A stretch of DNA of 64,000 bases from NCBI GenBank assembly GCA_027603065.1, contig JADGJP010000013.1:525706-589705 (forward strand), in the 5' to 3' direction. This DNA is from Geranomyces variabilis. Lineage: Eukaryota; Chytridiomycota; Chytridiomycetes; Spizellomycetales; Powellomycetaceae. Under the pieces are notes generated by a model, which was given only the letters and a program-made list of their open reading frames with translations, was not told the origin of the DNA and made no database searches. This document shows, one piece after another, positions 14,801 through 64,000 of this stretch (its first letter is position 1; each line of letters starts with the position of its first letter). A program made the translations under genes and the position numbers.

Positions 14801-17800
14801 CGCTGCGCGCCTTTTCGCCCTCCTCCCGCGCGCGTTGGACCTCTTGTGCGGCTTCAGCTTTTTCTGCTGCCATCGCCCGACGCAGTTCATGCAGTTCACG
14901 TTCTTTCTGCGCGGCAAGGTCTTTGCGGATCCCAAGAATGTCGAGTTCCTTTTCCTGCTGAAGGGTGGCGCGAATGGCGGACATTTGCTCCTGATCGGCG
15001 CGTGCGCGAGCGAGTTCTTGTTCTGCTATAGCTAGCTTTTGATGCAGATCCCGGTATCGTTCTGACTCGTCTTCCTGTGAAAGAAAACAATAGCCGTATT
15101 AGTAGTTGGACTCGATATGCCAGCGCCGAGACTCTCGCATCGCTCATTGTCCATACGTCACGATCCACGAGCTTGGCCTCGTAGTCCAGACGTAAAGCCT
15201 CTTGCACGCGATCCTTTTCGTGCAGCGCGGCTTCTGCAACCAGCACAACAAGTAAAACACAGCTTTCAACAACCTTATACGGAGACAGAGAGATGCTCCT
15301 TCCGCCGCTTACCTAAATCCCCTCTAAGCTCTTCCAGATTCCGCATCAGTCGCTCGTTTAGCGCGCGCAAACTGCGTGCTTCGTCGTCGTTACGCCCGAC
15401 TTCGTTCGCACTCCCATATGCCGAGCGTAAAGCATTATCTGACCGCTCCTCCTCAAACTGATGCTCGTTGCCGTCCGGTGACTCATCATATTGATCGTTA
15501 CCTAACGGCTCTGCTGCTAGTTCTGATGGCGAGGCATCTTCGTGTTGTCCATCACCATGGTCGTCATATTCATCGCCCACAAGCTGAGTCTGCGAGTCAC
15601 CCGTGAGGCGCGAGGTGTGACGGCTGAGACCGCCATGGTCATCGTCCAGAAGATGGGTCTGCGAGTTTCCCGTGAGGCGCGAGCTGTGACGGCTGAGACT
15701 GCCACGGTCATTTTCTAGAAGCTGCGTACGCGAATTTCCCACGAGGCGCGAGCTGTGGCGGCTGAGACCGCCATGGTCATCTTCTACAAGCTGGGGCTGC
15801 GAATCTCCCGCGAAGCGCGAGCTATGACGGCTGAAGTTGTCACCGTCCACAAGCTGGGCCTGCGAGTCTCCCGCGAGGCGCGAGCTGTGACGGCTGAGAA
15901 AATCGCGTTCGCTCGGCGAAGTGGATGGCTGTTGAGATGACTGAGGGGATTGCTGATGATCATGGTAGTGGCCATTGAGGGAATGAGAGGAAGCGCGCTG
16001 TTGAGCGCCCGACTCGGAGGCACCAGAGTCGGAGAGAACGCCTAATGAGCTTTCGAGGCTGTCGCCTTTCAGGTGTGCGTCTGCGTAATGGCCGTCGTCT
16101 GCTATTGATTCCGGCTGTTCGTTCGCGTATCGCGCGTCGTCGGTTATGAACTCCGGCTGCTCGTCCGCGTATTGGGCGTCGTCTTCCAATGATTCAGGTC
16201 TATCATCTGCGTAATTGCCGTCATTAGCTGTTGATTCCGGCTGTCCGTTCGCGTATCGCGCGTCGTCGGCTATGAATTCCGGCTGCTCGTCAGTGTAATG
16301 GCCGTCGTTAGCTAGTGAATCCGGCTGTGCGTCCGCATATTGGCCATCGTCGGCTATTGATTCCGGCTCTGCTTGGTTCTGAGGTTTTGACTTGCGTTCG
16401 TTAGCCCGTACTAAGCACAAAGTTAGTTAATTAATTGCATTGTCGAGACCATGACATGCGGAATAGACACTTACCTTCTGAGGGTTGGCGACGAGATCTG
16501 CGAGTGCGCCAATAAGACGGAGAATCACCCCACAATGGCTCTTCCTGCTCGAGATCCAGTTCATTGAGCGACCTGCGCGATCCACGCGCGCTCACGCGGC
16601 CATAGTTTGCTGGGGTGGGAGTCGCCGCAGACGGAGAATCCCACATTGTGTCATCCTGTTCAAATTCCGGTTCTTGCGCAAGGTCGCCAGATGCATTGAT
16701 CGACCGGCGCGATCCATGCACGGAGCTATACGGAGCTGAACGCGTTGTCACACTTTCCGCGCGATGCTCCTCTGCAGATTCGTTGACCGTCCGGCGCGAT
16801 CCATGCACGGAACTATACGGAGCAGAACGCGTGGTCACACTTCCGCCGCGATCGTCCTCTGCAGAGCCATTGACCGTACGGCGCGATCCATGCACAGAGC
16901 TATACGGAGCCGAACGCGTTGTTACGCTCTCAGCGCGATCCTCCTCTGTCCATGCCGGGGAGGATGGGCGCGTGTTGTCTTTGGACAACGGCGGACCCAG
17001 ACCGGTAAGATCCAGGTCCTCGAGCCCACCGGCGGAATCACCCTCTCCAAAATTGAGGTCATCGTCGCCGAAATCCAGCTCATCATCATCCTCACCGCGG
17101 CCAAACTCAGCATCAAGGAGTTCAAGAGTTGGCGTGCTGAGAAAGTGGTGTTTTGGGTCCTGCCCATCGCTGAACGCGTGCTGAAGATCACGGTCCAGGC
17201 TGGCATGGCTCATGTCTTCCGAGTACCCGGTTATGCTGCCTGCATAGTCCACTACGCCTCCGCGGTCATGGCTATTCATGTCTGAGCTATCGAAAACTCT
17301 GCCATTTGCTCCGCGGCGGGCGTCGTGGTTTTCATATGCATCGCGCAGTCCGCTGCCAGCGCGGCCACTTTCACTACCGCCCTCGAATGCGCCATCTTCA
17401 TGGTCCTTAGCTGCTGCATGGCCACCGGCGTTTCCACCGCCACCTCCACCATCGCCGATACCGCCGCCGCCGCCGCCGCCATTCAATTCTTCGGCGCCCA
17501 GTTGGTCTACCATTCGCTTAAACTCATCGTCGACAAATGACAGTTCGGACTCTGCATCCTCCTCATCTCGACGCTGCTGCGACGGATACGGCGACGACGG
17601 TGACAGAGAGTTATTGGAGCGGCGGGCGGCGTTCGCAGACCGCGGAGACGGCGGTGCCGTGCGCTCTTTCCGCTCGTTGATGCTGGAACGGCGAGATTCT
17701 GATAGACTTTCTGCGCGCTGTGCTGGCGTGCGGGCACCGTCCGTGGCGCCTCCGCCAATGCTAAGCCTACCACCCCCACCACCACCACCACCACCGCTAT

Positions 17801-60617: not shown

Positions 60618-60802
60618 CGTAATACGGCGTATGAAAAGCAGCGGGAGGAGTAAGCGTGGTAGCCGGTCTGGGATTACATGTGCTGCGCAGCCAGCTTGCA
60701 CCCCCGCCATTTCTCTTCCCGCGTCCTCCTCATCCTCGTCCTCCACCATTCGCTCCTGACTCCATATCATCGCTTTCGTCCTCCTCCTTGTGCGTTTGGA
60801 GG

Positions 60803-61681
60803 ATGCTTCACGAGCATGGCCAGTCGCCAGAGCCTTCGGCCGGTGGTTCAGAATCGTCACCGGCCGAACTTGAGGGTCTTGCTCCGGCTCTCGCCTCGAT
60901 GAATTTGGCAGCCAATCAACCGCCGCGGCCGCCGCCACCGCCGAAAGAAAAAGCTAAGCGCCCGCCCAAACCCGGAAGCAAGGCAGCCATCCTTCTCAAA
61001 CAGCAGCAGCAGCAGCAGCAAAAACAACAGCAAGCTTCCACCTCGTGTGGACCGTCCACCGACGAGTCTACAGCCGACCCGCCAGATCTAACCTTTGACG
61101 AAGCTACAGGCGTGCTCATCCTCTCGTTCCGCAATCCATCCGCACTTGCAGCCGCCCTCCTCCGCCCACACGTCGCCTATGAAGGCGGCCACCTCAACGG
61201 CCCGCTCAAAGGCGTAAACTTCCCTTCCTCCCACTATACCACCTGGCTTGCAACAGGAACCTCCTCCTCCTCCTCCTCCTCCTCCTCCTCTTCAATAACG
61301 CCAACGCCGCCAGCTCTCACCGCCGCCGAACAAGCCACCGCCGCGCTCGTCCCACCCACGACATCATACATCTGCGCATACATCCGCAACGACAGGTCGA
61401 CGCTGCTTCACGAGTGGGCTCACGCGCGGTTCCACGTGTCGGACGCGTATCGTGCGCTGTGTGTCGCACAGTGGGCAGCGCTGGACGCTGCGACGGTTAA
61501 AGTTGTGCGGAAGGAGCTTGAGATGCGTGGGTATAGGGAGGATGTGTATGTAGATGAGTGGCAAGCCTATTGCGTTGAAGGGCCTGGGGAGTTTGGCAAG
61601 AAGGCTGGGCGGGCGCTGGGCGAGGCGCACTGCATCCTCAGGCGCGAGGTGGGAGTGCCGCCAACTGCTTCGAGAGCGTGA
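60803..61681 (+). CDS. HEWAH-motif protein, possible metallopeptidase-like
   Basis: Single-exon protein of 292 residues. The first 120 are disordered, Pro-rich with a Gln tract. The conserved-looking part starts at ILSFRNPSALAAALLRPHVA and contains YEGGHLNGPLKGVNFPSSHY, a serine-tract insertion, then YICAYIRNDRSTLLHEWAHA. HEWAH occupies residues 203-207 and fits the HExxH zinc-protease pattern. A third ligand could be Glu in YVDEWQAYCVEGPGEFGKK, giving a gluzincin-like set. A fungal protein family of unknown function is likely; protease activity is not shown. The ATG at 60803 is used because an earlier in-frame ATG gives only Pro-rich sequence running into the previous gene. Confidence 0.65.
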   Translation: MLHEHGQSPEPSAGGSESSPAELEGLAPALASMNLAANQPPRPPPPPKEKAKRPPKPGSKAAILLKQQQQQQQKQQQASTSCGPSTDESTADPPDLTFDEATGVLILSFRNPSALAAALLRPHVAYEGGHLNGPLKGVNFPSSHYTTWLATGTSSSSSSSSSSSITPTPPALTAAEQATAALVPPTTSYICAYIRNDRSTLLHEWAHARFHVSDAYRALCVAQWAALDAATVKVVRKELEMRGYREDVYVDEWQAYCVEGPGEFGKKAGRALGEAHCILRREVGVPPTASRA

Positions 61682-61786
61682 TTGGACCCATTACATCTTT
61701 CTTTTGCAAGACATAATGTCTTTTTGCGCCACGTACATCTTATAACACAACGAGCGTCATGGATAATAAAACTGTGGTACGCCAAC

Positions 61787-64000
61787 ATGCCACATCCGGA
61801 GGTATGTGTTGCTGATTTAAGGCAAAGCATTATTTATCCGTCATATATTGACTTCTATCTTTTTTCAAGCGCGCACAGATCTTGATGGACAAGGACGTCA
61901 AACATCTGCTGGATGCCCTCAACTACGGTGAAATCACTCGCGGCGGCATCTTTCAAGCCACGCTGCACGATTATGACACCAACGTTGAGAATCTGACGGC
62001 GGTATCACAAGGCCCAGGGTGTGGACGTAGCTATCTGCAAAATACAATTGGCTACACCGCTACCAGCTTGGTTACAAACCTTGAAGTCAACGTGTCCGTC
62101 AACTTCATGAAGAAGTTGCGACAATACGTCGAGCGCAGGTTTTGCATCAAGGCGATCTTGCGGGAGTTCAACCACGTTACCAACAAACGCATACGCAAGT
62201 TCCTGTGTAAACGTCTGCGGCGTCGTTTTAACCGGCTGTGGAGGCTGATCACAAACCTGGATGTTCTCTCGGAAGATGAACTACCCGCTTTTGAACCGGC
62301 TTTCGACAGCGTTTTCTTTGAGATTTGGGGTGAGATTTTGTGCATCTTGCCGGCTGATCCAAAATCCCTCGAGTTCAATCTTGCATATGCGGTGGCATGC
62401 GAACCTGCAAAATACGTCGGCGCATACTGCGCACTCTCTCGCTTGTGGCAAGCGGCGCGATTTCCGGCCCTCTTCTCAGCTATTCCTGTGCGCACCAGCC
62501 ATGTTCAATCGTATGTCCCCATTGACACGAAAACGCTCCTCGATGTTATAACTCGCCTACCTGGCCGTTCAACTCTATTGCACTCAAGTCTCGAGCAAAA
62601 GCTAGCACATTGGAATGTGCTTTGCAACGTCAACCACAAGTCTTTTCAAGATCGCGGAAATTATAAATTTTCAGGTATTGATGCTGTCTGCGTGCATACG
62701 TTACTCTCATATTAATTGCTAAATCTTTTTTAGGAACCATTATGACGGACGGCGTTGGTGTCTCGGTTCGGCATGTTGACATGACCAAGGTCACCGTGAC
62801 TACAACAGGCCGTCCCATGATGCCGAAACCATGCAAAGTATCCAAGGCAGCTCAGCGTGCAGCGGTCGACAGGCTCTACATGGACACGCCAGAAAATGCT
62901 GCAGTTATTTGTGACCGCATCTTGCATCCAGATCCCAATGCGCCGGTGGTCCTCTGTGATCCGAATATCTGCGACATGCTGTATTTGAAAGAGTACAGCA
63001 CCGACAATATCATGCGGTACACACTCTCGCAGCAGAAGAAGGAAACAAAGGCTCGCGAGCGTATTAAGGAGTGCAACAAGGAGCGGCTTCGCAACTTGCC
63101 AGCGCCCGGTGGTGGATCTTTAGAGGCAACAATGCCAGGGCACAAGTCAATGCTGATAAGTCACAGTGGCGGTAGCTGGGGTGCACTGCGGATGCTGAGA
63201 TGCTGAGATGCGCGATGCGCAATGCTGGAGTGTATAGCGGATGCTGAGATGCGCGATGCGCGATGTTGGGGTGCTGGAGTGTATAGCGGATGCTGTGATG
63301 CTGTGATGCTGTGATGCGCAATGCAGATGCTGGAGTGCATAGCGGATGCTGCGACGCGCGATGCAGATGCTGTGGCGCGCTGGTGGATGCTGTGGCGCGC
63401 GATGCAGGCGCGCATGCGCGATGCAGATGCAGATGTTGAAGTGCGATGCTGTGATGCGGTGCCTCTGTGATGCGCGATGCATGCTAAGATGCGCGATGCT
63501 GTGATGCGCAATGCATGCTGAGATGCGTGATGCTGTGACGCGGTGCATGGCGGATTGCATGGTGGATGCTGTGATGCTGTGATGCGCAATGCAGATGCTG
63601 GAGTCGGCGGATGCTGTGATGCGCGATGCTGTGATGCACGATGCAGATGCTGGAGTCGGCGGATGCTGAAATGCACGATGCTGTGATGCGCGATGCAGAT
63701 GCTGGAGTTGGCGGATGCTGAGATGCGCGATGCTGTGATGCGCGATGCAGATGCTGGAGTCGGCGGATGCTGTGATGCGCAATGCGCAATGCGCAATGCT
63801 GAAGTGCACGGCGGATTGCATGGTGGATGCTGTGATGCTGTCATACTGCTGTGTCACAGTGCCAGTCTTCAACATCAGTCATTGGTAACTAACGTTTTTT
63901 TTATTTTCTTTTTCTGCTAGGCTATCGATTTCAATCAATGGCTGGCATTTCAAGTGCAGCATTGCCTGGCATTTGAAAACTGCTATGCTGCAACCACCCG
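61787..64000 (+). CDS. Fanzor (eukaryotic TnpB-like) RNA-guided nuclease, 5' part
   Basis: The gene runs off the right edge. Exons 61787-61801, 61879-62674 and 62734 to about 63125 give roughly 400 residues. NYKFSGTIMTDGVGVSVRHV, restored at the second splice junction, and VVLCDPNICDMLYLKEY match the region that leads into the RuvC-I aspartate of Fanzor/OrfB proteins. MRYTLSQQKKETKARERIKE is also typical of that segment. The glutamate, zinc ribbon and last RuvC aspartate lie outside the window, so intactness cannot be judged. A third intron of about 795 nt, holding the satellite, probably runs to the acceptor CTGCTAG at 63920; the next exon would begin AIDFNQWLAF. Its donor is uncertain: a GC donor at 63126 keeps the frame. 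It starts only 105 bp after the HEWAH gene. Confidence 0.75.
63178..63850. repeat. satellite array with 52-bp higher-order units
   Basis: Built from short GATGC-containing units (GATGCTGTGATGCGCGATGC type). Three clean 52-bp copies lie at 63610-63661, 63662-63713 and 63714-63765; earlier copies are more diverged and shorter. The array lacks stop codons in two minus-strand frames, so long artificial Ser/Ala/His/Ile-rich frames appear. It lies inside the inferred third Fanzor intron. Confidence 0.9.

Follow-up and report, generated by a model that had tools for sequence, protein, structure and literature searches.

The right-hand end of the window very probably carries a 5'-truncated, splice-damaged copy of an element that is dispersed and mobile in Geranomyces variabilis and codes for a Fanzor1, an RNA-guided DNA endonuclease. 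The window is the whole stretch of DNA that was analysed, 64,000 nucleotides of contig C5 (C5:525706-589705). In the same reading, a complete copy of the element would have five coding exons, whose splicing yields a protein of roughly 770-810 amino acids. A structured right end of about 107 nt just past the stop codon would most likely give rise to an omega-RNA, with the unique DNA flanking each copy as its guide. Since the guide would be unique flanking DNA, a copy would direct cleavage of its own insertion site where this is empty, and so favour being retained or copied itself, in a manner resembling a gene drive. The earlier note on this DNA had identified a Fanzor gene and regarded it as a candidate accessory system. 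The identification holds and can be narrowed to Fanzor1, while the term accessory system overstates the case, the evidence being that of a dispersed mobile element. What is gained is a large family of Fanzor1 genes that have spliceosomal introns and are close to the best-studied Fanzor, SpuFz1 of Spizellomyces punctatus, a fungus of the same chytrid order as Geranomyces (Spizellomycetales).

The truncated gene at the end of the window

The partial Fanzor1 gene, delimited from the sequence and its open frames, spans window positions 61706-64000 on the plus strand and runs to the window end. Its open frames at 61852-62715 and 62682-63206 match the earlier description. Coding exon 1 is present only as a remnant of its 3' part (61706..61801). 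Homology to other copies begins at 61706-61707, and all 23 of the other copies that have this region begin their match at query base 107-108; about 130 N-terminal residues of the copy on contig C78 are absent. Intron 1 (61802..61869) is 68 nt long, reads GTATGT...CAAG and is in phase 0; five copies have introns of 63-75 nt at this position. Coding exon 2 (61870..62674) is open and free of stops, and its homology to SpuFz1 is seen through the C78 copy. Intron 2 (62675..62733; 59 nt, GTATTG...TTTAG, phase 1) has its donor GTATTG at 62675 and its acceptor AG at 62732-62733, and the joined product reads FSG-TIMTDGVGVSV. The junction 62674|62734 agrees with the spliced N-terminal half that the earlier note had described with the TIMTDGVGVSV motif. 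Coding exon 3 (62734..63155), placed by the open frames and the C78 alignment, contains the TDG motif and the RuvC-I motif VLCDPN. The D-P-N codons lie at 62958..62966, and by alignment through the C78 copy the D and N correspond to D383 and N385 of SpuFz1, which are magnesium ligands. These two ligands can be read in the window copy; the glutamate and the final aspartate fall past the contig end.

Intron 3 (63156..63920, plus strand) is a GATGC-rich minisatellite of 765 nt with the donor ATAAGT. Both of its boundaries are in phase 0 (KSML|AIDFNQW), and a branch-like CTAAC lies about 30 nt upstream of the acceptor AG, which ends at 63920. Coding had been proposed to resume at 63921 (AIDFNQWLAF) after about 795 nt filled mainly by tandem repeats, with a donor at about 63125. 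The resumption point is in phase and the repeat filling is real, but the donor is at 63156 and the intron is correspondingly 765 nt. The tandem arrays (63188..63799, plus strand; periods 8, 15, 16, 19, 40, 49, 52 and 156) were resolved by TRF into 63188-63407 and 63443-63799, with a gap at 63408-63442, and cover 75% of the intron. GATGC occurs 53 times in it, against 0.7 expected. The start of coding exon 4 (63921..64000, AIDFNQWLAF...) is cut by the end of contig C5, which is 589705 bases long and ends where the window ends. The downstream half of the gene was therefore taken from other copies. The exon 1 remnant, intron 1, the AT donor and the contig end had been missed in the earlier note. 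Because exon 1 is truncated and the intron 3 donor is lost, the window copy is probably a decayed, non-functional fragment, although exons 2 and 3 are open.

Two other features of the window were noted. A gene at 60764-61678 lies directly upstream of the truncated Fanzor gene, and its stop falls some 25 bases short of the Fanzor boundary. The encoded protein contains HEWAH, a motif of the HExxH type, along with S/Q stretches of low complexity, and a Pfam search with it returned no family at a significant E-value. Tandem repeats with periods 69 and 42/84/126 are located at 15570-16368, within a long minus-strand open frame (15275-16426).

A Fanzor1 family dispersed in the genome

The C78 copy encodes an open protein of 784 amino acids in five coding exons, separated by introns of 65, 68, 872 and 75 nt. 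Its protein matches SpuFz1 (PDB 8gkh) over residues 91-777 with an E-value of 9.2e-68. The Fanzor1 of Parasitella parasitica (PDB 9cf0; E 2.9e-26) is matched in two stretches, residues 219-542 and the C-terminal 601-777; it is more distant, in that no single alignment covers the whole protein as it does for SpuFz1. Homology over most of the protein length assigns the C78 copy to Fanzor1, and the window copy supplies part of exon 1 to part of exon 4 of the same gene family. Chance is not the explanation, since the exon 2 piece also hits 23 further copies elsewhere in the genome, each with a best match of 76-90% identity. According to the SpuFz1 paper (PMC10432273), two magnesium ions are bound by D383, N385, E541 and D606. 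All four are kept in the C78 copy, as the D and N of VLCDPN, the E of IDEFRTSS and the D of YYNRD, with the correspondence counted by hand along the alignment to 8gkh. Between the E and the final D, the C78 protein has the cysteine motifs CPFVIC and CTGREC, candidates for zinc binding, where the aligned region of SpuFz1 has CPRC and CTNPNC, and the spacing of the first pair differs. The glutamate, cysteine-containing and final aspartate motifs for which the earlier note had proposed a search are present in the downstream exons of this sister copy.

No significant Pfam family was found for the exon pieces or for the C78 protein, and NCBIfam gave no relevant family; PF26935 appears as a precomputed Pfam accession on 10 of 13 G. 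variabilis homologues. A genome search with PF07282, the zinc-ribbon nuclease domain of TnpB/OrfB, matched seven places (five above the cut-off), none of them at a family copy, and membership of TnpB/OrfB by this domain was not found. Matches to PF07282, together with a DPGSR motif, mark a separate Fanzor/TnpB-like family on contigs C11, C18 and C13, which gave no tblastn match to the Fanzor1 family studied here below an E-value of 0.8. A distant Fanzor1 relative is located at C71:23972-27625, with 25-35% identity to the family studied here in three main matched stretches.

Among deposited sequences, 13 G. variabilis proteins (P0003-P0015, including HDU88_007178) match with 73-87% identity, and two of them, P0003 and P0004, span the whole query. 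All are named hypothetical proteins in their sources. They fall under four locus-tag prefixes, which are taken to be different strains. A literature search by title, whose coverage takes in few subscription journals, returned no title about this Geranomyces family.

Exon 2 matches 29 places in the genome, which represent 24 family copies, the window copy included. This count excludes three second pieces of listed copies as well as the matches on C71 (33%) and C11 (48% over 42 residues), which are not family. Stops interrupt exon 2 or exon 3 in several copies; C34a, for one, has a single stop in exon 2. Splice-site picking gave a shifted frame for C34b, C45 and C56, and these three are not used to judge coding integrity. 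Coding constraint is evident in both exons: the median pairwise dN/dS is 0.35 across the 190 pairs formed by 20 copies of exon 2 and 0.28 across the 120 pairs formed by 16 copies of exon 3. Copies with less than 90% exon coverage in one match were excluded, and gap and stop codons were masked. N-terminal coding repeats resembling QLDEVEVDAGAM vary in number among copies, as in exon 1 of C34b and in the models P0007, P0011 and P0014.

The SpuFz1 element, as described in PMC10432273, likewise has many copies with roughly 80-90% identity, and 134 'ghost' elements without the open reading frame. Its locus of about 2.1 kb has a single open reading frame and 30-nt inverted repeats. The Geranomyces family, in contrast, has five coding exons, a minisatellite intron and N-terminal coding repeats. 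Since SpuFz1 is described there as a single open reading frame, the introns and the satellite set the Geranomyces family apart.

Many copies are found at contig ends. The 5' halves lie less than 500 bases from 18 contig ends and all point outward. The right end matches 29 places in the genome; right ends occur at 21 contig ends, reading inward, and the upstream part is missing from the contig at 21 of the 29. The copy on C31 is cut in the opposite sense, with its 5' part missing. Outward-pointing 5' halves at so many ends could suggest a subtelomeric gene that spreads by exchange of telomere ends. We rejected this idea as scarcely credible on the positions of the telomere repeats and the complementary right ends. 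Telomere repeats, (TTAGGG)4, are present on eight contigs, including C20, C67, C30, C25 and C38, and on C20, C67 and C30 the telomere repeat is at one end and the element piece at the other. Because of these opposite ends and the complementary inward right ends, the element-bearing contig ends are most likely places where the assembly broke within the repeat, and not chromosome ends.

The intron 3 minisatellite and its probable splicing

The satellite-swollen intron that the earlier note had described in one gene is a trait shared by the family, and it is an odd and uncommon gene anatomy. Intron 3 is readable end to end in 16 copies, with lengths from 251 to 1229 nt. All 16 of these closed introns contain GATGC-rich arrays and end in an acceptor AG after a pyrimidine tract, and 15 of the 16 have a branch-like CT(A/G)A(C/T) within the last 90 nt. 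The donor is readable in 19 of 26 sequences. It is GT in 18, reading GTAAGT or GTGAGT, and AT in one, the window copy only. Five of the 13 deposited models (P0003, P0004, P0005, P0010 and P0014) pass straight from KSML to A(I/N)DFN. The other eight lack the exact intron 3 junction. Two of them (P0006 and P0008) end within exon 3, two (P0007 and P0012) read through into the intron, and two (P0009 and P0013) go on at another place; P0011 is joined to exon 5, and P0015 breaks off at an earlier point. The junctions in these protein models are annotations.

These features suggest that intron 3 is removed by ordinary splicing in full copies. The family's ancestor probably already carried the minisatellite, which varies in length and would be spliced out normally. 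Alternatively, the satellite could be a repeat insertion that interrupts the frame, in which case it would not be a spliced intron and the gene family would consist of pseudogenes. The AT donor of the window copy, the stops in several copies and the eight models without the exact join, two of which enter the intron, speak for this view. It is quite unlikely, however, in view of the donors, acceptors and CTAAC/CTAAT-like branch motifs shared among copies, the phase 0 on both sides with an exact join in five models, and dN/dS ratios well under 1. Active splicing and recent decay had been put forward as the two ways of accommodating a satellite in the gene. Each appears to have its place, splicing in the family, as far as five of the 13 models and the 18 GT donors go, and probable decay in the window copy, where most of exon 1 is absent and the donor is AT.

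The ends of the element and its mobility

The 3' end of the element is sharply defined. All 29 right ends terminate at GGGCTTGT or a near variant, and the next base is A in 28 of them (...TTGTA), after which 29 differing flanks follow. In a comparison from which self-matches and matches 100% identical across 250 nt had been filtered out, these right flanks had no similarity to each other, to other examined loci or to the window. The 107 nt after the stop codon of the C78 copy fold at -42.9 kcal/mol (z -3.18), a value reached by 2 of 200 shuffled sequences, and the last hairpin pairs TACAGG with the terminal CTTGTA. Four bases of the middle hairpin are absent from 9 of the 29 right ends, with the GACC/GGTC stem still kept. 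In gap-free columns of six copies, conservation was 0.958 for the right end, 0.957 for exon 4, 0.919 for exon 5 and 0.905 for intron 4. Since the right end does not exceed exon 4 in this measure, conservation alone is no proof of an RNA. A search of Rfam found no family for the right end, the best match being far under its gathering score.

The right end is likely a putative omega-RNA. Its position, its fold and the variety of its flanks agree with an omega-RNA whose guide is derived from the flank. The omega-RNA of SpuFz1 has a 75-nt scaffold followed by a variable, guide-like extension of 14-15 nt (PMC10432273). The right end could also be the terminus used by some transposase, with no guide RNA and with the protein as the only working part. 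A transposon end would need conservation too, and the lack of an Rfam family fits such a terminus. We consider this rather unlikely, because a hairpin-forming structure just past the stop codon, followed by a variable flank, is the arrangement that the same paper describes for the SpuFz1 omega-RNA, and because Y1 and serine recombinases were not found. Neither the Y1 family (PF01797) nor the serine recombinase family (PF00239) was detected in the genome, with 5 and 10 of 14 control genomes positive; membership of IS200/IS605 or IS607 by way of such a partner was not found. The Helitron Rep family (PF14214) was not found in the genome either, and the control search for it was likewise positive nowhere.

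The 5' side appears different. SpuFz1 has 30-nt inverted repeats (PMC10432273), whereas a search of 24 upstream sequences of the Geranomyces family for an inverted repeat of the right end gave none above the best of 20 shuffles. The copies C37e and C6s have a short TACAAG(T/C)CC match, which offers a lead but no proof. An alignment read partly by eye places the upstream regions in about four groups with mosaic blocks and differing break points, and no common left motif was seen among them. No target duplication was found in C34b or C45. The 5' side of the element thus looks ragged or mosaic, with a fixed 3' end. The copy at the end of C47 adjoins, on its upstream side, the 3' end of a host gene. 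Gene and element are annotated together as one fused protein, P0015, which has Pfam accessions for CAP-Gly and leucine-rich repeat. A broken piece of this host-gene end, 93-94% identical, was read from the alignment upstream of the C78 copy, which suggests that 5' host flank can travel with the element.

A family with these ends might spread without a dedicated transposase, its fixed 3' end being the omega-RNA hairpin and its ragged 5' ends carrying host flank. Movement would then be driven by the nuclease, by host repair or by the machinery of another element acting in trans, and the intronic minisatellite would persist through an effect of its length on splicing or on recombination among the copies. 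We give this account a small chance, slightly raised by the piece of host gene found upstream of the C78 copy. Three things are unusual: the minisatellite that the introns share, the pairing of ragged 5' ends with a fixed 3' end, and the lack of a partner transposase among the families searched. The family offers a set for comparison in its 29 right ends, each with a different flank, its copies both complete and decayed, and the deposited proteins. A comparison of occupied with empty sites among the presumed strains could make the role of Fanzor for its element testable.

At the contig starts L017 and L026, both copies are interrupted by the same sequence, which starts TGTGAGATGCGTATCG, and the copy at L031 is interrupted by a sequence with a similar start. 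The interrupting sequence may represent one end of a different transposon that lies nested within the Fanzor gene.
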